DNA of 64,000 nt from NCBI GenBank assembly GCA_963969365.1, contig OZ017749.1, positions 558,001 through 622,000 on the forward strand. The letters are read 5' to 3'. Of the stretch, positions 1,137 to 46,970 are shown in pieces (the first letter of the stretch is position 1; the number at the start of each line of letters is the position of its first letter). Below the pieces are notes generated by a model. It was not told the DNA's origin and did not search any database. It worked only from the letters and a program-made list of their open reading frames with translations. This DNA is from Asterochloris sp. CNOR1 (lineage: Eukaryota; Chlorophyta; Trebouxiophyceae; Trebouxiales; Trebouxiaceae). The position numbers and the translations under genes were made by a program.

Positions 1137-4100
1137 GCGCTCAGGACTGGGGACTCTGGGCTTTACTGGCGGGATGCGGAGCCTGCGGACAGGTGAGGGA
1201 ATCTGCTGCTGCCTGCACGCCCTTGCTGTCCTTAAGCAGTGCAGGCATGACTATTGGCATTGTTGCATGCTGTCTCCGGGCGTCTCAGCTCGTCAAACAA
1301 GCCGTGGGCATGCAGCCTAAGCATGGCAGTTGGCGAGCACCGTCTTGCTCATGGGCTTTCCACTGCACTGAGGTCTTCCACTGTTGCAGCAAGGGCCCCC
1401 TCGCAACTCGCCTCCCAGAGTCTGAACTGCTGCTTGCTCGGAGAAGAAAGACCGGCATCATGTTCCCTTCTTCACATGCAGATCTTGGAGCAACGCACCA
1501 CTTTCGGCGCACTCCTGTCTGCTCCACTGCTCTCAATGATGGCCGGCCTGCTGCTGGCTACAGCTGAGGTGTTGCCCACTGCCAGTCCAGCCTATGGCAT
1601 CATCTTCACACACTTGATGCCGCTGGGGGCCGCCCTGTACCTCCTAGAGTCGGATCTGCGCCAGTGAGCAGCCTGGCTGACCTGCTGGGGGGCTGTTGCA
1701 CCACACTGCTGGGGATGGCATAGGGCGTGCCTGCTACGCTGTTGCAGCCGCCACAACTGCATGTGCTGCTGTGGCCCATGCCCTCGTGGTCCACCAGCTT
1801 TCCATCTTGAGCTTCATCGCAATTTCGTGCTGTCAGGGGGCCCGGTCCTGGCTGTCTGCATGTGACTCTGCAGTTCTAGGCCAGTGCATCGACCTCTGGC
1901 TGGCGCTGGCAGCCAGCCTACCTATGCACCCATTGGTGCCCAGGCGTTTCAAGCTCGCCTCAGTGTGTACAAGCTGGCTGGCAGTGTTGGCTCCACGCCA
2001 ACTGCAGCTGTCTGCACGTCAATGACTGCCGTTGCTTCACCTGATGTGCTCGCTTGCGCGTACAGGCTGGCTGGCAGCGCCGGATCCACGCTGGTGGCGT
2101 TTGTCATTGGCGCCATAGGCACTGTGGCTGGGACCCTGGTGGCCTGGCTTGCGCTAGGAGCAAGGCTGGGGCCTGATGGGTGGAAGGTGGGCTGCCTGCG
2201 ACCATTTTGACTACAACCCTGCCGACCTGCTCCAGTTTGCAGCAACCAGGCTGCTACACCGCGCTTGACTCCGCCATGCTGCTCTGAGAAATCGGTGCTC
2301 AGCAACCGTGCGCTGAGCCGTCTGTGTAGGAAAGGGTGGCAGAAGTGTGGTCCTTTGGCTATGCTAGAAGTGATTCAGGTGGTGGGCACAGCCAGAGCCC
2401 CGGACTGCAAGAAGGGCGTCACGCATGCACAGCAGCAAGACAAGTCCGCCAGGGCTGCTTGATGCATACACAATCACTTGGTCCCCCTCAGCCCGCAGGC
2501 CATGATGCAGCTGCAGCCAAGCACTGCTGCTGGCTGCGGCTGGCCCTGAAAGGCTTGAGCCTTCATCATGCCATGCACCCCTCTGTCGTGCTGCTAGACT
2601 GGAGTGCAGCAGGAATCTGTTGCTGCGATCCAGCCAGATAATCTTGCTGGGTTGGCATGCAGGTTGCCTCAGCCCTGTGTGCCTCCTACGTGGGCGGGTC
2701 TGTCAACTTTGCGGCCACGTCGCAGTCGCTCGGCCTGACTCCTGGCCCCGTCCTGGCAGCCTCTATGGCTGCAGACAACATAGCAATGGCCATATACCTG
2801 ACAGGTGGGGCTGCTGGGGGGTAAACTAGGGGTCACATGTGTCAAGGTCAGTCTGCACAGGGTCCATGCAGCGTCCCGCAGCTCCTGCACACCTGGCGCT
2901 TCAGCTGTGCCAGCACAGCAGCAGCCTATCTTGAGCAGGCCTAGCTGTCTGCAGTGGCTGCACACACCAACAGGAAAGTGCTGCTTTCTGCATGTGACAG
3001 CATGTGCATGACACAGCGTGCATGTAGCCTCAGGCCGAGGTAGCACCTGTGCCACAGCAGCTGATGATTTTGCTGGTCTCTGTTTCCATACGCCACACGC
3101 TCCCTCTGAGCGCAGACAGACCTGCAGGGGACCTCATGTGGTGCAGCCTGCAGGCATCATGCTGATCCCGGCTGAGCCAGAGGCCCCTGTTGCTGTGGTC
3201 AGTGCTGGCGACAGCGCCGCACTTGCGTCGCTGCCAGGGGCGCCGGACGAGGAGGCAGACAGCGCAGCTGGAGGCAAGCTAGGGTGCGCATGCTGCTAGG
3301 GAATGTTGCAAGCAGATCGGGTGACCCAACTTGCCTGCAGATTGGCCGCAGTTGCCTGCGGAGCGTTTGCTTGGCAAGGTGCAAATCAGATTCGTCCATC
3401 TGTCTGCCCCACTCGGAGGCACCAGGACTCCACACTGTTTGTTGTGCCTTTCGGGGGGGCCAATGTTTGTGTTGAGGGTCTGAAAGTGCCATCATATTGA
3501 CTGCAGGGCTTCCAAGTAGTCGCTGCAGGCTGCCAACCTGCCTGTCACCACTTTTGCAACTGTTGCTTGCTGAATGGCACACATCGTACCCTTTCAGCTA
3601 TTCCATGATCATCTACCTGTGCCGCTCATCTCAGCTTGTTGTTTGGTTGCTGCAGGCGTGACCACCTCATCAGTCACCACTGAGTCTGTGGCGGCAGCCC
3701 TGGCGGCAGCTGTGGCAGCCTGCTGGTCTGGCAGCCGCCTGGCAGAGGCTGCAGGCATGCCTGACGCCTCCCTGGCTGCCATGGCGTTGGTGGCCTCCCT
3801 CATCGCCTCCTGTGGAGGGGCTGCCAGCAAACGCTGGGCTGCCCCTGGCAGGCACGAGGCCCCTTTTGCAGGCAAGCCATTGTGTGCGGTACTGTGCGAT
3901 GCATGTCAGCAATGTTTGCTGGACATGCCAGATTGGTAGGGGCTGCATTTGCAGCTTCCCCCCTGTTCAGCCTAGTGTTGATGAGGAGCAGGCGCTTGCC
4001 TAGGGCACCTCAAGGCTGGGGATGCCCTATTGGAATTTGCAGTGTGAGTCAACCCCCATTTGGCAGACCTTTCTGTTAGTAGCGCAGTGCTGGCGCTGGG

Positions 4101-25332: not shown

Positions 25333-27414
25333 GCCCCTGTCTGTCTGCAGCCAGCTGGCGTCAGATGTCTCCAGAGGTCCAGCAGCAGGAAGCATGCATC
25401 TCTGCTGCTGGACCTCTGCTGCACTTGTCAGTATTGCTTGAAGTCTACTGAGAGGAGCCTGTCCAGCTCCAGAAGCAGTACGCCTAGGGTGAGCTCGAGC
25501 CCTTTTGCTGTGGATGATACTAGTAATTCACCCATTGCCTTCAAACTTTCTGCCTTCCTGAATTCTTGATTTAATTCATACATCAGCAGAAGTTTCAACA
25601 TCAGTAAATACATGCTTCACCGGCAGCACAACACGAGATGCTGGAGAGCCAGTCAGCTGAGCTGCAGATGCATAAAGATTTCAAGATTCAAGTCAGGCAA
25701 AACAGCAGCCTGAGATCCTGTGGTGATGAACATACAGTCAGTCACGCCGGATAACACTTCCAATGCAGCTTGGGGTTTACAGCACATACTCAAGCCCAAA
25801 CCCGGCCACAGCTGGGTTGGCAGCTGCCACCACATGGTGTGCTGCATGCGCTGATTAGCTTATGAGACGTGGCATGACTTGAGCTCACCCAACTGCAGCA
25901 CTCCCTGGTTCAGGACACATGACAACATCAACCACGCGCAGCTGCTGCACAGGGGTCATGCAGACATACATCGCAGATGCTGTCAAAGGCTGGCTCGATG
26001 TCATTGCTTCCAAAGAGATGACTACATCTGAGAAAATCACAAGTACTTCATCTCAACCAGGGCACAGCACTGTAACACAACTATTTTTCTGAGGTCTCAT
26101 AGCCCTGTAGCTTCAGATTCACAAAGTCCCACTCTTCATGAGTAGCAGCTGTAGAGCTCTTGTCCACCCTTCAAATAGCACTTGAGGCCTTCAATTACAG
26201 CTTGGTCAAGATTGTATCTGTCCCCCTCAATGAGTTGCTGGCAGTTTGACCCTCTCAACAAATTGCTGGCATCCTGAACAAAGTTCAGCAGCTGGGGTTA
26301 GAGTTGGTGGCAGTAGCACAGAGAATCTGAGTCAGCTAGACCAGGTGTCAGCGTTTCAGCTGGCACTACTCCAAGAGCTGACCTTTGCCCATCACTAAAT
26401 GCAGGCTTGACAGTTGCCTGGATGTTATCAGCTCAGTCAGCGGCAGGCTGATGGGCCAGCACGTTGTGCTTCCTGTGACAGCGCACTGGCGGCGCCAACA
26501 TCTCCGAATCCCGCAACAAGTGTCAGCATGTCCAGGCCTGGCCTCCTGCAGCCTCAGCTGCAGACAGCTGCCCACCTTGAACTCCAGGCTGGACTGTGCC
26601 TGAGTTCATGCACAACATGTTGGGCAGGGGTATTGGCTGCCCACTATTGCAGACCAGCTCACGCTGGCAGGCAGTGGTGGTGGCCACGCTGCGTCATGTA
26701 CACACTGCAGAAACAGGCGTACATGCACTGCAGGCATAAGCTGCCAAGCCGCTCCCAGCTTGGTAGCTGATGGGGAGCAGGTCCACCCCCTCCTGCTTGT
26801 GGTGTGGTGCACTGTTAGAGGTGCGCACCCACAACCCCGCAAGAGGACGTCTGCCATGCCAGCGGCTGCTTTGATGGCCCAGCTGTACATGTTTGAGCGG
26901 CAGACACATCTGCTGCTGGTGAAACTGCAGCGCAATGTGCTCATGTCCAGCTGCAGCTGGCTGCCCTGCTTGAGCCGGCATGTGCAAGGCTCAGGCCAGC
27001 GAGCTTCAGCGCGAATTCGGGCTCAGGCTCAGAGGGCTTGGTCAGGCCTCTTCTGAGGCTGCCATGAATTGATGGCACGAGAGGGACCACTCTTGGCAGT
27101 GCGAAGCATGCCCTGCAGTGCACTGGGTAGGCTCAGGAGCAGCAATCTGAGGTGAGCTATGCTCACAAGAGCTTATCGCATTTGTCACAGGATAGTATCA
27201 GCACTCATATCCAAATCTTGTGGCCACGCTTTGCCTGGGCGAAAGCTTTCCCCTTAAGGGGCTCATGCAGGCTGCTGCAGCAGCTTCTGTGCCTGCTGCA
27301 AGGATGCTGAGCCTGCACAAGCTGTGTCTCCTGCCTGAAAGCTCACGCTGTCTGTTTGGACCATGGTGCAGAGGAAGCGTGGTAGCACGGGCGCCGCTGC
27401 CACTCAATCCTGTG
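25333..27414. other. no recognised gene
   Basis: About 2 kb without a gene I can support. The first half (25.4-26.4 kb) is visibly less GC-rich than its surroundings. Several open frames exist on both strands, but none gives a recognisable product or a convincing exon chain. Confidence 0.4.
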
Positions 27415-30400
27415 CTGCTGACAATGCAGCAAAGGCCAACAGCCTATGTCTCTGACTACCAAGCTGGTCCTTGTGACAGGCAGAGCTCCATGGCAACTCT
27501 GAGGCGCCACATTTTGTCACCCAGGCCATTGCCAGCGCAGGAACAAAAGAGCCTCCACCCAGGCTGCACTCCCTGGTCAGGTGAGTCTGCACAGCACACT
27601 GCAGCAAATGCTGTGAACAGTATGCTGTAGCCTGGGCTTTGCCAAAGTTTTTGCGCAATAATATTAAACTAGAATTTGGTCGTGAGCTTCGACAGCGGGT
27701 CGAGTCGTGCAGTTCCGGCTTGCCTGAGCCTCTTGTGCCTCTGAGGTCGTGGCAGAAGCATCAGCAGCATCTGAAGCAGCCAAGCAGCACAGCCGCCTTG
27801 GCGGCAGCAAAAGAGGCTGATCCCACATCCCTGGCCTCTACAGGGCATTCTAAGTACCAGATCGCAGCCTGGCGAGGTAGTTACATCGATCGTGCGGACA
27901 AAGGGATGCCTCCAACGATTTCACGCCTCGGAGCTCATGCGCACCAAGAATGTCCTGCGATCATGCCTGAGACGCATCAGGACCTACCAATGGCGGGGAT
28001 GTGGTGTGCTGATCACAGTTCACATGGCAGCTGACTTACGCAGGCCATGCTGATGTTGTCACAAAGAGCGTCTGCGGAGCCTCAGGGGGCCCGCTCTAGA
28101 CTTGCCCTGTGCGCATGTGCACTTCATGCAAGGAGGCGGCCTGCACTTTTCTGCTGTGCTCATGCACTCTAGCTGAGAGCACTCTTGTGCTGCAGGCTGA
28201 GGCAGGAGCACGCCGGTCCAAGGCAGCTGCAGACAGGCGCCACCCCCGTCGAGTAGTCCCACATCTGCTGAGCCACATTGTGGTCCCAGCTCAGCTGCAG
28301 TCAACCTCCCACACCGTAGCCTGACTGCACCCAGTCCCAATGTCCCGCCAGTATGCACCAGGTGACTACATGCATGCGTTCAGGAGCTCTACATTGATCC
28401 CACAAAGCTGCCAACAGAGGTACACGTCGGCTTCCAAAAGCCGCACTCGCCCTGCAACTCAAGGCTGAGAAGGTGACTACTGCTACCAGCAGGTTTCAAG
28501 AGGCTAAACAATATCGAATAAGATCTGGCAAAAATTGTCTGGCGCTGAGAGTCACTTCTGCACACTGTGCTGGACCAGCATGCTGTGCGAGGAACACAGC
28601 TCCTCCTGCTGGTGTGCTGTTGGCCTTGGCTATTCACCCCAGGCAGACAATATCTCTTACTGGTACATTCATGGGCTTGGGCCACGCTAGCATGCTGCAG
28701 CTGATGGGTGACTTGCTGGCGCTTTGCTGTGCAGGCAATGAAGGCGGCAGGCAGGGTTTTCAACAGGGAGTGGAGAGGCATCTGGGAGTGGTAAGGGACC
28801 GCCCCGACAGCAGCATCACCAGAGGTGGGCGGTGTTGCATGCTGTGCAGCAGCACAATGGTGACCTCCTCAGGTATACTACATGGCAGGCCTGTAGGGAG
28901 ACCAGGTTGCTGTCATATGCAGCTCGCCCCTCAGCCTCGTCCTTCCATGGTGTGTTGCAAAGCAGCTGTGTGAAGACCCGCTCACGCACAAACAGCCACT
29001 GCATGTCTTAGGGACAGGCACTGGCACTGGAGTCGATGACGCTGCCAGTGCCTCAGGCGCTGGCCCAGCCCCAGTCTCAACAGGAGCTGTTGCACAAGCC
29101 ACTCTCAGTCCTTTATACTCCATGGCAACTTTTGAGCGATGCTCAGCGCTCAGCATGCTGTGCCTGCAGCTGAGGAGTTCCAGGAGGTCGGCCCCATCAC
29201 ACGAGAATGTGACTGGAGCGAGGCTGACCTAGTGTACGCAGCCTCGTGGTACATGACGCCGCAGCCGCCGAATGAGGCTGAGGACTTCCAGACCGTAAGC
29301 TTGCGCTGGCTTTTGGCAGCTGGACGGGGTTGCAGTGACCAGTGGGGCCTCAGCTGTGCAGTGCTCATCCATTCAGGGCCAGACACACTTGATGCCCAGG
29401 GCACAGAGGGGCACCACTGCCGGGCACGTTGCCTCACCGCTTTTGGCCTGGATGGCCCACCTTCTGAATGCTGCTCCTGCTTGCTGGTGAGACCATTGCC
29501 GGTAGGACGCACACCTGCGGCAATTTCTTCTGCAGTGGGAGCCTCCTCAGCATGGTCATCCCACACATGTAGGCATCCTTTAGTAGTCCCACTCTCAGGT
29601 CAACAGAGATGGTGCCATGCTGCTGGTGCAGTGGAAATACTACCAGGACTTCTGGCCTGCGCTGCCAGAGGATCGGCGGCGGCGGGGCATGCACCTGTGC
29701 TTTGGTAAGCAGTGTGGTGTGCATCTGGGCCTGCTCTTTAAGGCAGAACCATTTAGATCCTCCACGGCTGCCAGGCGGCTGTGGTATCAGCACAGGACTG
29801 ATGTGGCATGCGGTCAGGACTGCCCTTGAAGGCTTTGATGGCAGGGCTCTTCAAACAGTGGGCATGTACATTCCACTGGCCTCCCAGTCAGAGAGCTAAA
29901 TTTGCCATTTCCCAGTGCAGCAGCACGGCGCTGACCTCCTCAGGCTTTTTACTCGGCAATCTCATGGGGCTGCCCAGGTTGCTGTCACATGCAGCCCGGT
30001 TCTCAGCCCTGTGCCTCCATGGCTTGTCGCCTAGCAGCTTTGTGAGGCCTGCCAAAGCACAAGGAGCCACTGCATGTCTGCAGGGACACGCACTGGCAGT
30101 GGAGTCGACAATGCAGGCACTGCCACTGGTGCGATCCAGGCCCCGGGCTTGGGGGAGCTGTTGCAGAAGCCAGCTCTCAGTTCTTCACAATGAATGGCAA
30201 CTCCTGGGAGATGCTCAGCACTCAATTTGCCGTGCCTGCAGTCAAGGAGTGGGACTTCCAGATTGATGACAACCTGGAGTTTGCTGCCTGGTGGCAATTG
30301 GTGGCGCAACCGAAGCAGGAGGATGGGTGGTATCTCAATGAAAGCTTAATCATGGCAGAAGCAGCTGGAAAGGGTTACAGCTGACTATGCCTCAGATGTG

Positions 30401-32984
30401 CATTGCTCATCCAATCAAGGCCATGGCACACCTGATTTCCAGGGCACACAGGGGCACCACTGCCGGGTCTTACTGTTGTTGGCCTGAAGGCCTGCCTTCT
30501 GAAGGCTGCTCCTGCCTGGCTCATCCACTGATGGCAGGACTCACAACCTGTGCAGCCCTTCTCTGAATTGGGGGCTTCCTGTGAAAGATCATCCCACGCA
30601 TGTAGGCATCTTCTGGTGGTCTTACTCTCAGGTCATGACAGATGCTGCCCTGCTGCTGATGCAGTGGATGCTCTACAAAGACAGTTGGGCTGTACTGCCA
30701 GAGGAACAGAAGCAGCGAGGCATACAGCTGCGAGATGCCAGGCTTCAGACAGAGGGCAGCACGGCAGCCCAAGCCAGGTGGTGGCACCTGAGCACTGAGC
30801 GTCACTCAGACAAAGCGCGCACAGCTCTGCATTGTGCATACCTGGAGCGCATGAAGCGAGAAGCCCAGGCCCAGCAGCAGCAGCAGGACAATTTCACGGG
30901 CTCTGGGTCGTCTGGCTACGTCCAGCAGCAGCAGCCCCTTCCAGGGCGGCACGGGCTGGCACACACTGCTCAGGAGCACCCGGCAGAGCAGGGGCAGGCT
31001 CCTCGTGGGCAGCAGCAGCCTCCACCCCCTGCCGGCTGGGGGACGCAGGGTCACAGCGAGCAGCTGCCAGGGCAGCAGCAGCACCCCTCGGCAGGGCAGT
31101 GGCAGTCTGGGGGCCAGGGGCTGCCAGGCTATGCCCAGCAGCAACACATCTCCCGAGGGCAGGCAGAGCTGGGCCATGGGCAGCAGCAGGACCAGGCTGC
31201 AGGACCTGGGCCGCCGGCAGTTGCCCTGCAGGTGTCGCTCTATGGCCCAGCGCAGCAGCTGGCACAGGAGCAGCCACGGCATGCTCCTGAGCCCCTTCAG
31301 ATGCACCACCACCAGCAGCAGCAGGGACTGGCGCTGCCTAGTCAGCCTGGTCAGCAACAGCAGCATGCACAGGTAGGCCAAGGCCACAGTGGCCAGGCAG
31401 CCGCCGCTGCTGCTGCCGCCGAGAAGGCAGGCGAAGAGATTGCCGAGCTGGCGGGCGCCTGTTCTCCTGCAGAGGTAGGCTGTCATTCAGCACCTTGTGC
31501 TGCATGATCAGCTCTCGAGCATACTCACACAGCAGGACATGCTGAGCTGCAAACCTGATGCCAGTAGTTTGATAGCCAGCCAGCACTGTAGATCCAATCG
31601 GCGTCAGCGCAAGCCCCTCTGCATGGCTCCTGTGCAGCCATCACTCACAAATACTTGGGTGCTGCAGAAGGAGCTGGGGCAGCTGGCCACTGAGGACATT
31701 GAACGGGTGCTAGACTGCTGCAAAGACGCCAAGCAGATTGCTCTGCTCAGCGTCTTGCATCGCTGGGCAAGGAGCTCGCCCAGCGGCGTGTATGGCCACC
31801 TGCTGGCCTGGCTGCAGCTAGCAGAGGTCAAGGCAGCTGACCAGATGGAGATGCTGGCTGCCCAGCTGATGGCCTATAACCGCCTGCTGGGCCCAGGCCT
31901 GCTGGACACTTGGCTGCAGCAGACGACAGAGCTGGCAGCCGAGCTGTCAGAGGCAGATAGGGCAGCAGCCCTCTGCGGATGCAGCCCGCTGGAGGACGCT
32001 GGCCGGGAGCCAGCCTCGCTGGCAGACCCACAGAGGCTGCTGAAGATTCTGGGAGCCTGCCGCGCCAGGGCAGCTCACGCCGCCTTGCAGAAGGCACGGG
32101 GCGCGCCACTTCTGGGTGCCAAAACTTCACCCGCTGGCGTGAACACTCAGGTCAGTGGTGCGAGGGCCCACACAGCCTTCTCATGGGCAGCTTGCCAAGG
32201 TCACAACTCTGCGCAACTCATGTCGCTGCGCAGGTAGACAGCCCTTGCTTGCTGCTTGCAGCTCTGATTTGCTGCATGCTGTGCCAGCGCTTGGCTTGAT
32301 GCACCTTGCAGCACTGCACCTCTAGCCCTGCAGGGCCTCACAGGCTTCACCACTGGGGGCCTGCTGGACACCGTGAGGCAGGTGCAGCAGAGGCTGGCAA
32401 AGCAAGCAGGCTCAAGGGAGGCAGGCGACCAGACAGCGCTGGGGCAGATGCTGACCCTGCTGCTGCAGCTTGGGCAGACCATGAAGGCCCAGGGGGGCAG
32501 CACAGCCCCGATTGGGTTTGCCCACCTGCTCAAGATGTGGGCTCAGCAGTCCAACCTAAAGCCGCAGCCCTCCAGGAGGGGGCTGGACCGCTGGGCCTCC
32601 CTCCACCTGGACACGGAGCTGCACACCGCCCTGCTGCTGCTGCTGCTGCACCAGCAGCTGCAGCACTGGCAGATCAGCTGGAGGGGGGCACGGAGGCTGC
32701 ACCGCTGTGACGGGATCATGGACGGCGCCCTGGCAGAGGCCAAAGCTGTGCTGTGGACGCTGCAGGCGAAGAATGAGCAGCTGAAAAGCAAGCTGCGCAG
32801 GCTGCTTCAGGAGGATGTGCTCTGCTTTGACCTGTGCGGGGCAGACCTCAAGGGCCTGACACGCGACAGCCTCAGCATTCTCACCAAGGATAGGCATGTC
32901 AGCGTCATGCGCAACACCATCAGGAGTGCATGCGAGGGCCTAGCACGGGCACAGCAGCGCTCTCTGACCAGCATAGCCGAATGA
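27415..32984 (+). CDS. locus A: unknown protein with repeated exon pair, Gln-rich middle and alpha-helical C-terminus
   Basis: I do not recognise the family. The 3' part is solid: exons 30632-31474, 31638-32150 and 32334-32984 are in phase and open over about 668 codons, ending in TGA. The first opens with a helix (LLLMQWMLYKDSWAVLPEEQ), then a long Gln/Gly/His-rich stretch and an Ala run. The second and third are charged helical sequence, e.g. KDAKQIALLSVLHRWARSS and LLAWLQLAE. Upstream exons 29170-29294, 29599-29704 and 30242 to about 30330 carry related segments (VQWKYYQDFWPALPEDRRRR resembles the 30632 exon), so an exon pair has been tandemly duplicated with about 1.05 kb spacing. Further exon-like pieces, e.g. 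near 27711-27860 and 28740-28796, are weaker and the 5' end is unresolved. A second, broken copy lies at 42.3-47.0 kb. Confidence 0.6.
28850..30720. repeat. two-copy tandem duplication of about 1.05 kb within locus A
   Basis: The interval beginning near 28858 (gacctcctcagg, then a ttgctgtca-atgcagc block, then agccactgcatgtct) recurs near 29932. In each copy it is followed by a related exon pair (29170/29599 versus 30242/30632). A third version of the same block is at about 44004 in locus B. Confidence 0.75.
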
Positions 32985-42213: not shown

Positions 42214-43234
42214 GCGTCAAGAGGAGCATGGTGGTAAAGGAGGACCATTCCTCAATGTCATGCCTGACCGACACCAACACACTGTACTGACCAACAATGC
42301 AGCAAACGCCAGGCCTTGTCTGTCTGGCTGCCAAGCTTGTGATGCAGAGTTCCGTGGCAACTCTCAGAGGCCACATATGTGCATCCTTATGTGTCCTTGT
42401 GTGCATCCATGTTGGCATCCTATGTTGCATCATTGCTACCTACGCCATCGTCAGCGCAGAAACACAAGGGCCTCCACTCGGGCTGCAGTCCTCTGGCCAG
42501 GTGAACCTGCACAGCATATTGCAGCATAGTCTGCAAACAGTATGCTACAGCGTGTGCTCTCCCAGACTTGTTTCACCACAAGCTAAAACCCGGTCGTGAG
42601 CTTCGAAGCCGGGTCTAGATCTGCAGTCTCGGCTTGCCCGAGCCGCCTGTGCCTGTGAGGTCGTGGCAGAAGCAGCAGCAGCATATGAAGCTGTTCAGCC
42701 GCACAGCAGCCTTGGCAGCAGCGAACATGATGATCCCGGATTCCTGGCCTTCTAGAGGCCTTCTGAATAGCATATCGCAGCCTGGTGAGGTAGCTACATT
42801 GATCCTGCGCACAGAAGGATGATTCTAAATAGTCAAGCCTGGAAGCTCATGCGCATCAAGAATCTCATCCAGATTACTGATCAGGCCCCAGACGCATCAG
42901 GGCCTGCCCTGGCCACACTGTGGTGTGCTGATCACAATGCAAAGGGCAGCTGACTATTGCAGAACGTGCTGATTCTGTCATGAAAGGCGTCTGTGAAGGC
43001 GCAGGGTGCCCTCTCTTGACTTGCCCTGTGCACATGTATACCTTATGCAAGGAGATGGGCCTGCGCTTTCCTAGTGTGCTTATGCGCCTCAGCTGAGAGT
43101 CTTTTCTTGCTGCAGGCTGAGGCAGTAGCAGGAGTCTCCAAGGCAGCTGCAGACAGGCGCCAACCACCCTGAGCAATTCAACATTTAGGGAGCCAACCTG
43201 TTGTCCCAGTCAAACTGCCAGCACACCAGCCTGA

Positions 43235-43375
43235 CCAGGCTGACATGCTCGAGGTTGGACTGCAACTACAGAGCGGCTTACCAGATGTTGGATGCTCAGG
43301 GGGGGTGGTGCCTGATTGGCGCTGACGTGCTGGAGGTGGAACTGGATCCACAAAGCGGCTGATGAGATGCAGGTT
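43235..43375. repeat. direct tandem duplication of about 85 nt in locus B
   Basis: gctgacatgctcgaggttgg followed by caaag/agagcggct near 43240-43285 recurs as gctgacgtgctggaggtgga near 43320-43365. This is a local direct copy not seen in locus A. Confidence 0.55.
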
Positions 43376-44296
43376 ACACCCAGGCCCCATGGCCGGCCAA
43401 CATGCACCAGGTGACCAAATGCATGCATTGAGGGACTCTACATTGATCCCACCAAGCTGCTGACATACTCCTACAAGACCCGTACTTGCCTTGCAACTGA
43501 AAGCTGAGAAGGTAGCTAGTGCTGCCAGCAGGCTGCAGGACGGATTCTTTACAGAACCTTGCAGCGAAATGGACTGGTGCTGAGCTTCACTTCTGCACAC
43601 TTTGCTTGAGCACTGTTCTGTGTCTCAGACGGCTCCTGGGTCAGACGGCTCCTCCTGGTGTGCCGGTGGCCTCCGCTGTTCTCTCCCAGGCAGACAGCAT
43701 CTCTCACTGGTAAATTTGTTGGCTTGCAAGCCCACTTGGGCCACGCTAGCATGCTGCACCTTGAGGCTGACTTGCTGGCGGCTGACACTGCAGGCATTGA
43801 AACTGGCCAGCAGGCTCACGGTCAGGGAGTGCAGCGTAGCCACGGCGGCTACAGAACCACCACAGGCGAGCAATGTGGCAAGCAGTCAGGCCTGCCCTTA
43901 AGGCTTTGATGGCAAGGCTCCACACCACATGGGCATGTCCACTCTGCTGTGCTGTCAAGCAGAGAGCTCCGCTTGCCTTCCACAGTGCAGCAGCACAATG
44001 CTGACCTCCTCAGGCCTTTCACATAACATGCGTATGGGGCTGCCAGGGTATTGTCATATGCAGCTCGATTGTCAGCCCTGTGCTTCCATGCCTTGTCGCA
44101 AAGCAGCTTTGTGAAGGCCTGCACAAGCACAGGGAGCCACTGCATGTCTGCAGGGACAGCCACTGCCACTGTGGCAGGTCCCAGCCCCGCTCTTGGGAGG
44201 AGCTGTTGCACAAGCCAGCTGTCAATTCTTCACAATGACTGGCAACTCATGAGCAATGTTCAGTGCTCTGTATGCTTTGCCTGCAGCTGATCAGGT

Positions 44297-44610
44297 CCAA
44301 TGGATCGCCGCCATCACTGAGGAGTCAGACTGGGGCAATCATGTCAACCTGTAGCATGCGGCTTGGTCGTGTGTGCTGGCCGAGCTGATGACTGCTTTCA
44401 GAATGTGAGCTTATTGGCTTGGTTTGTGTGCTGGCCGAGCTGATGACTGCTTTCAGAATGTGAGCTTATCCAAGCTCACATTTCGAGGCAATGATTGGCC
44501 TCAGTTGGCGACGCCAGCACGTTCCACCATGCTGCGAATTCCAGGTGGCATCATACTTCCAGTCTGACTCCCTTGTGATGGCGCTGACCCCTACAGCAGC
44601 AGCAGCAGCA
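44297..44610. repeat. inverted exon duplication F1 in locus B, with internal 56-nt tandem copy
   Basis: The plus-strand exon near 44297-44416 (reading AITEESDWGNH) is followed at about 44473-44605 by an inverted copy whose minus-strand reading is AITRESDWKYDATWNSQHGG. The junction (44457-44480) is a short palindrome, aatgtgagct / agctcacatt, with a 6-nt spacer. Within the left arm a 56-nt block (44361-44416) is repeated directly at 44417-44472. Confidence 0.75.
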
Positions 44611-45394
44611 GGATCCCACTGGCTGTGAGCCATCTGGGAACACGCACCAGTAGCAGCTCCTGGCATGGAAGGCACAGGTCAACTACTGGCAGCAGCAGCC
44701 CCAGGGCGGCAGGGGCTGTCACACCACTCAGGAGCACCCGGTAGGGCGGCTGCATTCTCCTTATGGGCGGCAGCAGTCTTCACTCCCTGCCAGCTGCGGA
44801 CTGCAGGGCTACAGCCAGCAGCTGCCAGGCTATGGCCAGCAGCAGCAGCAGTCCTTGGCAGGACAAGTGCAGCCTCACCATGGGCAGTGGCACTCCTAGT
44901 ATGTGAGATAGGAGGTGCCAGGCTATGCCCAGCGGCAGCACTCCCCTTGAGTGAGGCACAGCTGGGGCATGGGCAGCAGCAGCACCACAGAGGGCAGGTG
45001 TTGCGCTGCAGTTGCCGCCACGTGGCCCAGCGCAGCAGCTTGCACAGCAGCAGCTACAGCATGCTACTGAGCCCCCTCAGATGCACCACCAGCAGCAGCA
45101 GCATGCACAGGCAGGCCAAGGCTGCAGTGGCCATGCACCTGCTGCTGCTGCTGAGCTGGCAGCCAGAAAGCTAGCCAGGCTGGCAGCCGCCGGCTCTTCC
45201 AGAGAGGTGAGTTGTCATACAGTAACTCCTGTGAGCATTGTAGCTATGGAGCAGATTCACACATCCTACTGGGCATGCCAAGCTGCAGACCTGATGCCAG
45301 TGTTGTGACAGCCAGCTCGCACTGTGCTTCCAGTCAGTGTCAGCGCAAGCCTCCCTGCATGTGTCCTGTGCAGCCACTGCTTACAAAAGCACAC

Positions 45395-45797
45395 TAAGTC
45401 GCCGGGCTGCCCCAGCCTCCGCCAGCTGCAGCCAGGCCAGCAGGTGCTTGTGGGCGCCGCTGGATGAGTCTCTTGCCCCGCAGTGCAAGACACTGAGCAG
45501 AGTGATCTGCTTGGCGTCTTGGCACCCATTAAGGACCCGCTCCTTGTCCTGACGTGCCAGCTTCCCCAGCTTTCTGCGCAGCTGCCACTCATGAAGGAGT
45601 GTGAGCTGCAGAAGAGACTGGGGCACCTGACACTTCAGGATATTGAGCAGGGCCTGCATGATAGCAAAGATGCGAAGCAACACGCTCTGCTCAGCGTCTT
45701 GCACTTCTGGGCCTGGAACTCGCCCAGCGGCGTGTACGGCCACTTGCTGGCCTGGCTGCAGCTGGCAGAGGCTGGGGCGACTCACCAGATGGAGTAG
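45395..45797. repeat. inverted exon duplication F2 in locus B, arms about 190 nt
   Basis: The plus-strand exon at about 45600-45795 (reading DAKQHALLSVLHFWAWNSPS and LLAWLQLAEAGA) is preceded by an inverted copy at about 45395-45585. Read on the minus strand the copy gives DAKQITLLSVLHCGARDSSS and LLAWLQLAEAGA. The two arms are roughly 75-80% alike by eye, with the centre near 45590. Locus A has only the direct copy. Confidence 0.85.
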
Positions 45798-45862
45798 CTG
45801 GCTGCCCATCCGATGACCCAAAACCGCCTGTTGGGCCCAGGCCTGCGGGACACCTGGCTGCA

Positions 45863-45933
45863 GCAGACCACAGAGCTGGCCAATGAGCTGCCAAAGGCAG
45901 AGAGGCAGCTCATTGGCCAGCTCTGTGGTCTGC
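45863..45933. repeat. 30-nt perfect inverted repeat (hairpin) in locus B
   Basis: Left arm 45863-45892 (gcagaccacagagctggcca and on) and right arm 45904-45933 are exact reverse complements, separated by an 11-nt spacer. A few more matching bases extend outward after one mismatch. The corresponding place in locus A (about 31917-31990) has only the left-arm sequence, so the right arm was added in B. Confidence 0.92.
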
Positions 45934-46589
45934 AGCAGCTAGCCATCCAGCAGGCCCTCTGCGGCTGCATTCTGCGGGAGCCAGCCTTGCTGTCAGACAC
46001 ACACAGGCTTCCAGAGGTGCTGGGAGCCTGCCTAGCCAGCGTGAGGGCCGCTGCCCTGCAGAAGGCCCAGGAGGCACTGCTTCAGGCCAACAGATTTCCA
46101 CCTCCTGCAGGAGACTTTCAGGTCACTGGTTAGGGGCCCCACATGGCACTCCTTCATGTTGCCAAGGCCAGAAGTTTGCGCAGTTTCTGTGGCTGCGCTG
46201 GTGGACAGCCCATGCTTGCAAGTCTGGTGAGCTGCTTGCTGCTGGCAAGTCTGGTTTGCTACATGCTGTGCCAGCGTTTAGCATCGAAGATGTTACATCA
46301 CTGCCACTTCTGGACCACGCACATCTTGCCGTGCAGGTCCTCTCAGGCTTCACCACTAGGGGCCTGCAAGAGACAGTGGGGCAGGTGAGGCAGGTGAAAC
46401 AGCTGTGAATTCACCTGTGCTACTGTCTCCAGCAGGCCCCTGGTGGTGAAGGTTGAGACTCTGCAGAGGCTGGTGAGGCTGGCTCGGTCCTCAAGGCAGT
46501 AGCGAAGACAACGCTGGGGCAGATGCTGGCCCTGCTGCTGCAGCTTGGGCGGGCCAAGAAAGCAGGATGGGACAATTCAGGATGCGGCT

Positions 46590-46884
46590 TTGGGCACATG
46601 CTCACCGTGTGGGCCCAACAGATGAACCTCAAGCCACAGCTCTCAAGGGGTCTCTCTGAGTCTGAATCGCTAGGGCTCCGTCCATCTGGACACATAGCTG
46701 CAAAACACCTTGCCGCTGCTGCTGCTGCTGCTGCACCAGAAGCTGCAGCGCCAGCGGCAGGGTGTTGTGCAGCTCGGTGTCCAGGTGTACAGAGCCCCAG
46801 CGGTTCAGGCTCTGATGGAGGCCCCTGGAGGGCTGTGGCTTGAGACCTGACTACTGGGCCAACACGGTGAGCATGTGGGCGAAG
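46590..46884. repeat. inverted exon duplication F3 in locus B, arms about 130 nt
   Basis: Plus-strand sequence 46590-46720 (gggcacatgctcaccgtgtg, then agcctcaagccacagc-type block) reappears in reverse complement at about 46752-46884 (ending cacggtgagcatgtgggcga). The centre is a CTG-rich loop. Both arms correspond to locus A 32520-32640. The right arm is in places closer to A (ctgtggcttgag, gccccagcggttcaggct) than the left arm is. Confidence 0.85.
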
Positions 46885-46970
46885 TGCTAGAAGCTGCACC
46901 GCTCCGACCACATCATGGAGAGCGCCCGGGCAGAGGCAAGGGCCTGACACGCTGTGCCATGAGCAACATG

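Follow-up and report, generated by a model that had tools for sequence, protein, structure and literature searches.

New silencing loci begin, under the inverted-duplication model, as inverted copies of their target; to our knowledge, the origin of such inverted copies is poorly known. Locus B, a gene copy in which segment after segment stands next to its own reverse complement, raises this question directly. Is it a hairpin-RNA locus selected to act on its paralogue, locus A, or do its palindromes record the way in which the DNA was copied? We addressed this in a 64-kb window (the whole stretch of DNA analysed, to which coordinates refer unless a contig or tile is named) and in the surrounding genome.

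Locus B is a decayed paralogue of locus A

Locus A (27421–32984) and locus B (42294–46950, right end approximate) both lie on the plus strand and match each other in forward orientation, with 69–76% identity in the matched stretches (self-BLAST and A–B alignment). A is the colinear paralogue: with exon borders taken from a gene model, its frames are open, and its 3' exons remain so up to a TGA at 32984. B carries two TAG codons inside the stretch matched to A, the second probably intronic under the model; from the A–B alignment we also read the loss of one base from its frame near 46490. An earlier note on this DNA had described B as a broken paralogue of A, and the match, the TAG codons and the frame loss bear this out.

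Evidence for coding constraint on A appears mixed, with the open frames as the main sign of coding. Differences between A and B across the larger aligned exons were flat by codon position (27.9, 24.5 and 26.6%) and introns were alike (26.4%), while changes unique to A in four arm alignments numbered 19, 10 and 21 at the three codon positions. No Pfam family scored above the cut-off in the nine pieces scanned, six of them from A. Locus A also contains an internal direct duplication (28844–29697 and 29915–30730, 70% identical), each copy of which is matched by B over part of its length only.

Six inverted duplications in locus B

Three inverted duplications had been named earlier (F1, F2 and F3). 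All three were present, with arm identities of 72.5%, 78% and 80%, and a further three (E, I3 and I4) bring the number of adjacent inverted duplications in B to six, with arms of about 48–180 nt that are 71–89% identical. Palindrome E spans 43139–43329 (colinear arm 43139–43233, inverted arm 43236–43329; 67/94 positions identical, 71%; z = 15.5 for self-reverse-complement score against shuffles) and F1 spans 44302–44590 (colinear 44302–44412, inverted 44472–44590; 79/109 identical with 12 gap positions; z = 10.1). The longest, F2, occupies 45409–45778 (inverted 45409–45590, colinear 45597–45778; 140/180 identical, the 78% being the gapped and 75% the ungapped value; z = 29.8). It is followed by I3 at 45840–45956 (colinear 45840–45892, inverted 45904–45956; 47/53, 89%; z = 10.9), I4 at 46341–46458 (colinear 46341–46388, inverted 46411–46458; 40/48, 83%; z = 12.6) and F3 at 46588–46884 (colinear 46588–46729, inverted 46741–46884; 113/142; z = 28.3). 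The inverted copy lies upstream of the colinear copy in F2, where the gene model would place it in an intron, and downstream in the other five palindromes.

Self-reverse-complement scores exceeded all 100 dinucleotide shuffles in six of six palindromes (z = 10.1 to 29.8). Shuffling the 6-kb region 40 times yielded no passing inverted repeat. Within the 64-kb window, all four inverted pairs of at least 40 nt lying within 1.5 kb fell in B, as did all five inverted repeats passing the BLAST filter, which F1 failed. Three smaller features were also observed. A near-perfect and presumably recent tandem direct repeat of ~55 bp (96% over 55; 45 nt at 100%) lies inside F1 at 44360–44469; the inverted insertion of I3 keeps the B frame open (a 111-aa frame at 45798–46133) and would add residues in frame; and a small palindrome of ~47 nt in total, 92% self-complementary, lies outside B at 25372–25418.

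In the A–B alignment, E, F2, I3 and I4 appear as extra sequence in B opposite gaps in A, whereas part of the F3 insert is made to align with A. F1 aligns with two A exons in a separate exon alignment; absence of the F1 and F3 palindromes from A was therefore judged from exon alignment, the BLAST filter and the shuffle test. The BLAST inverted-repeat filter found no match in A. When four A segments were scored against shuffles, the counterparts of F1 gave z = −0.3 and −0.7, and those of F2 and F3 gave z = 2.7 each, the F3 counterpart scoring 82 against a shuffle maximum of 80. The earlier statement that A has no such inverted copies thus holds for BLAST-filter matches and for any comparable palindrome, but needs amending for the weak self-complementarity at the F2 and F3 counterparts.

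To look for a donor, we searched the genome (56.4 Mb in 21 contigs, here given as C1, C2 and so on) with F2 DNA, A exon DNA and A protein. Among the best-scoring matches there were no copies beyond A and B, except for one weak match to A protein on C7 (E = 0.02), and on this basis a third paralogue or a mobile element as donor of the inverted copies was rejected. Coding use of the inverted arms was likewise rejected. A 185-aa minus-strand open frame with similarity to A covers the F2 inverted arm, the F2 region matches A protein at 45% identity over a longer stretch with one TAA inside, and for the F3 inverted arm the protein match to A is 54% identical and contains one TAG. Changes unique to the inverted arms were flat by codon position, so we read both as relics.

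Predicted hairpins and antisense match to locus A

The proposal that a B transcript would form long imperfect hairpins was supported by predicted RNA folds of the F1, F2 and F3 regions, each of which lay beyond all 100 shuffles (z = −7.6, −14.7 and −17.7, respectively). Across the five stems of F1, F2, I3, I4 and F3, 289 of 450 21-nt windows had at most four unpaired positions. Plus-strand RNA of the inverted arms is antisense to A, and the F2 inverted arm contains a 23-nt perfect antisense match (45424–45446, plus strand, against A 31797–31819). Best antisense 21-mers against A in the other four palindromes compared had one mismatch (F3), two (I3), two (I4) or four (F1). The inverted arms thus carry stretches of near-perfect antisense to A exons, one of them perfect, in agreement with the claim that the hairpins carry A exon sequence.

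The 20-nt run quoted earlier as common to F2 and A, gctctgctcagcgtcttgca, is present, but on the sense arm; over the corresponding 20 positions the inverted arm has two differences from A. The relevant antisense run is the 23-nt stretch instead. A 19-nt run common to A and both F2 arms gave p = 0.003, uncorrected in a set of 32 tests; for the other three palindromes the corresponding values were p = 0.29, 0.43 and 0.91. We also found eight genome sites for the 23-mer, three in A and B and five elsewhere with one or two mismatches (reversed control, 0). Because of these five near-matching sites, part of the A–F2 match may be common wording.

Age of the arms and tests for selection

Arm divergence across the six palindromes was 22.4%, compared with 26.4% in A–B introns and 24.8% in the A–B 5' region. 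The difference between arm divergence and A–B non-coding divergence was not significant (p = 0.18), and the six palindromes were homogeneous in divergence (p = 0.12). With arms about as diverged as A and B and statistically of one age, the inverted copies probably date from the A-to-B duplication or soon after. They may represent one burst, the dating being deduced from a three-sequence tree (A and the two arms) that cannot be rooted.

We saw no clear sign of selection for arm pairing. In F2, I3, I4 and F3, the palindromes of the four arm alignments, changes unique to the inverted arm were distributed 15/15/18 over the three codon positions and those unique to the colinear arm 8/12/16. The excess of G-U over A-C mismatches was not significant in six palindromes (43:30, p = 0.16) or in five (37:23, p = 0.09).

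A similar cluster elsewhere in the genome

To gauge prevalence, we scanned 20 spaced 10-kb tiles, all on contigs C1–C3, together with 34.9 kb in 11 other loci, some of which overlap. A palindrome cluster was present in 1 of the 20 tiles (L024, C1:600001–610000), another tile (L031) held a single weak palindrome, and the 11 other loci held none. The L024 cluster (C1:602088–603707) comprises a palindrome at tile positions 2088–2251 (arm identity 85%) and, at 3242–3707, a complex in which pieces of one stretch, coding on our reading, recur inverted and in mosaic order with arms 87–97% identical. Serial template switching would be the natural reading of this order. The cluster is seemingly younger than the B palindromes, and its arm identity is higher than in B.

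A DNA search found no second genome copy of the 3242–3707 complex; distant paralogues could escape such a search. Clusters of this kind therefore need no close paralogue as target. In the 264 kb scanned, the density of B, with six palindromes in one gene copy, far exceeds that of all other sequence.

Small-RNA machinery in the genome

Domain searches identified Piwi-domain pieces on C14 and C1 (six matches, five above the cut-off) and, at a distance of 8 kb from those on C1, one PAZ match that scored below the cut-off. C11 carries two RNase III signatures separated by 2.7 kb: one above the cut-off, in a frame containing ERLELLGDAF, an RNase III signature sequence, and a second just below it with an in-frame TGA; a further RNase III locus is present on C13. 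The genome thus likely encodes an RNAi pathway, in which the C11 gene can tentatively be called Dicer-like. The earlier statement that green algae have Dicer and Argonaute systems is in keeping with these genes, the Piwi genes being probably of Argonaute type and the RNase III genes tentatively of Dicer type. As a separate observation, C17 encodes photosystem I subunit PsaD in two pieces, the first of which matches chloroplastic PsaD chains in the PDB, which fits the green alga of the earlier note.

Discussion

We consider it probable that the palindromes of locus B arose by template-switching or foldback DNA synthesis and have been under no visible constraint since, and we prefer this origin to a hairpin-RNA locus selected to act on A. 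B is a decayed duplicate of A. When this copy formed, or shortly afterwards, template switching during replication or foldback-primed repair synthesis would have given it six short local inverted duplications: a strand would have turned back to copy the template beside it before returning to the original one. Since then B would have drifted under no visible constraint. Any RNA made from B would form long imperfect hairpins that a Dicer-type enzyme could cut, but as a by-product rather than the reason for the structure. Each inverted copy is a local reverse complement that adjoins its source, is missing from A (gaps for E, F2, I3 and I4; no comparable palindrome for F1 and F3), is imperfect and is statistically of one age with the others. 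These properties, the similar ages of the arms and of the A–B split, the flat codon-position changes and the independent L024 cluster all support the favoured origin, and from them we infer the copying mechanism and the lack of function.

Short-range template switches are described as leaving reverse-complement sequence, often inverted repeats, in the descendant (PMC7954356), and foldback inverted duplications in yeast as centring on natural inverted repeats of 3–15 bp (PMC10622511). At the matching places in A, short inverted repeats were unusual at only one of the four centres compared (F2, I3, I4 and F3), namely that of F3, whose score is equalled or exceeded at 4.9% of A positions; the exact switching mechanism is accordingly something we infer. 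Also counting against template switching are the 19-nt run in F2, which could mean constraint, the non-significant G-U excess and the density of six palindromes in one copy. A template-switching origin would account for the anatomy of B without a regulatory purpose and appears the more economical reading.

Silencing of A in trans, in which the B transcript would fold, be cut by a Dicer-type enzyme and yield antisense small RNAs guiding Argonaute to A mRNA, is unlikely in our assessment. It would gain from the strong predicted folds and well-paired stem windows, the 23-nt perfect antisense match, the 19-nt run shared with both F2 arms and the Piwi and RNase III genes, and the hairpin arms do resemble A beyond the length of a mature small RNA. 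Pairing shows no significant sign of having been kept, however, the other four palindromes compared offer antisense 21-mers with one to four mismatches, the 23-mer recurs with one or two mismatches at five other sites, and L024 is a similar cluster of which DNA search finds no second copy. The proposal that B is aimed at A was therefore not upheld, the near-even 15/15/18 changes in the inverted arms adding to the absence of measurably kept pairing and to the L024 case; regulation of A by B would be plausible and possible but is unproven. Hairpins acting only in cis, with B RNA, if made, being cut or the locus silenced through its own stems and with no regular effect on A, have a similarly low probability. 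Chlamydomonas mRNAs with exon stem-loops increase in level when dcl3 is mutated (PMC4817775), rice pseudogenes are described as giving small RNAs that possibly act in cis or in trans (PMC2708354), and the stems of L024, which occur without a second copy, fit such action.

A bolder version, which we regard as improbable, holds that one error-prone duplication of A gave the paralogue and all six inverted copies in a single burst, making B a multi-hairpin silencing locus in which 45424–45446 would be a still-constrained antisense site. If true, a ready-made RNAi locus against a parent gene would appear in one step. Least credible of all is that the inverted copies are an assembly artefact or a hairpin-type transposable element. 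Hairpin reads can yield inverted copies beside their source, and MITEs too make inverted repeats. An artefact should nevertheless leave near-identical arms, and the arms of B are only 71–89% identical, with scores far above shuffles; this divergence of 11–29% speaks against the artefact that the earlier note had named as a possible refutation. Also against this reading, searches with the F2 palindrome and the L024 complex matched nothing outside A, B and L024 itself, and the arms are of A-like sequence.

Six copies of indistinguishable age in B, together with the seemingly younger L024 cluster, suggest a mutational source able to supply raw hairpins repeatedly. B has the anatomy of an inverted-duplication silencing locus and may work like a proto-silencing locus, although we do not class it as one. 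The inverted-duplication (Allen) model of plant miRNA genes, as presented in PMC3237417, includes an Arabidopsis miRNA gene lying over two inverted pseudogenes, with the parent gene as target. As in that model, B resembles a pseudogene, is a paralogue of its presumed target and has parts of the gene standing next to inverted copies of themselves; what sets it apart is that six separate local inversions occur in one duplicate, described here from sequence and predicted folds. Many Chlamydomonas miRNAs originate in mRNA introns and UTRs (PMC4817775). In the same alga, many condition-specific miRNAs seem to be cut without precision from rather long hairpins, and the young miRNAs are mostly thought to be neutral (both PMC5511227). 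The exon, intron and UTR stem-loops of Chlamydomonas reinhardtii that DCL3 processes (PMC4817775) resemble those of B in lying in gene-derived sequence of a host with Dicer- and Argonaute-type genes, but are documented there by small-RNA libraries and mutants, compared with sequence and predicted folds for B. Compared with the template-switch mutations of PMC7954356 and the foldback duplications of PMC10622511, as described in those sources, B has arms of up to about 180 nt, six events in one gene copy and seeding repeats that are unusual at one of four centres; common to all of them is the local insertion of reverse-complement sequence, which leaves inverted repeats close to each other.
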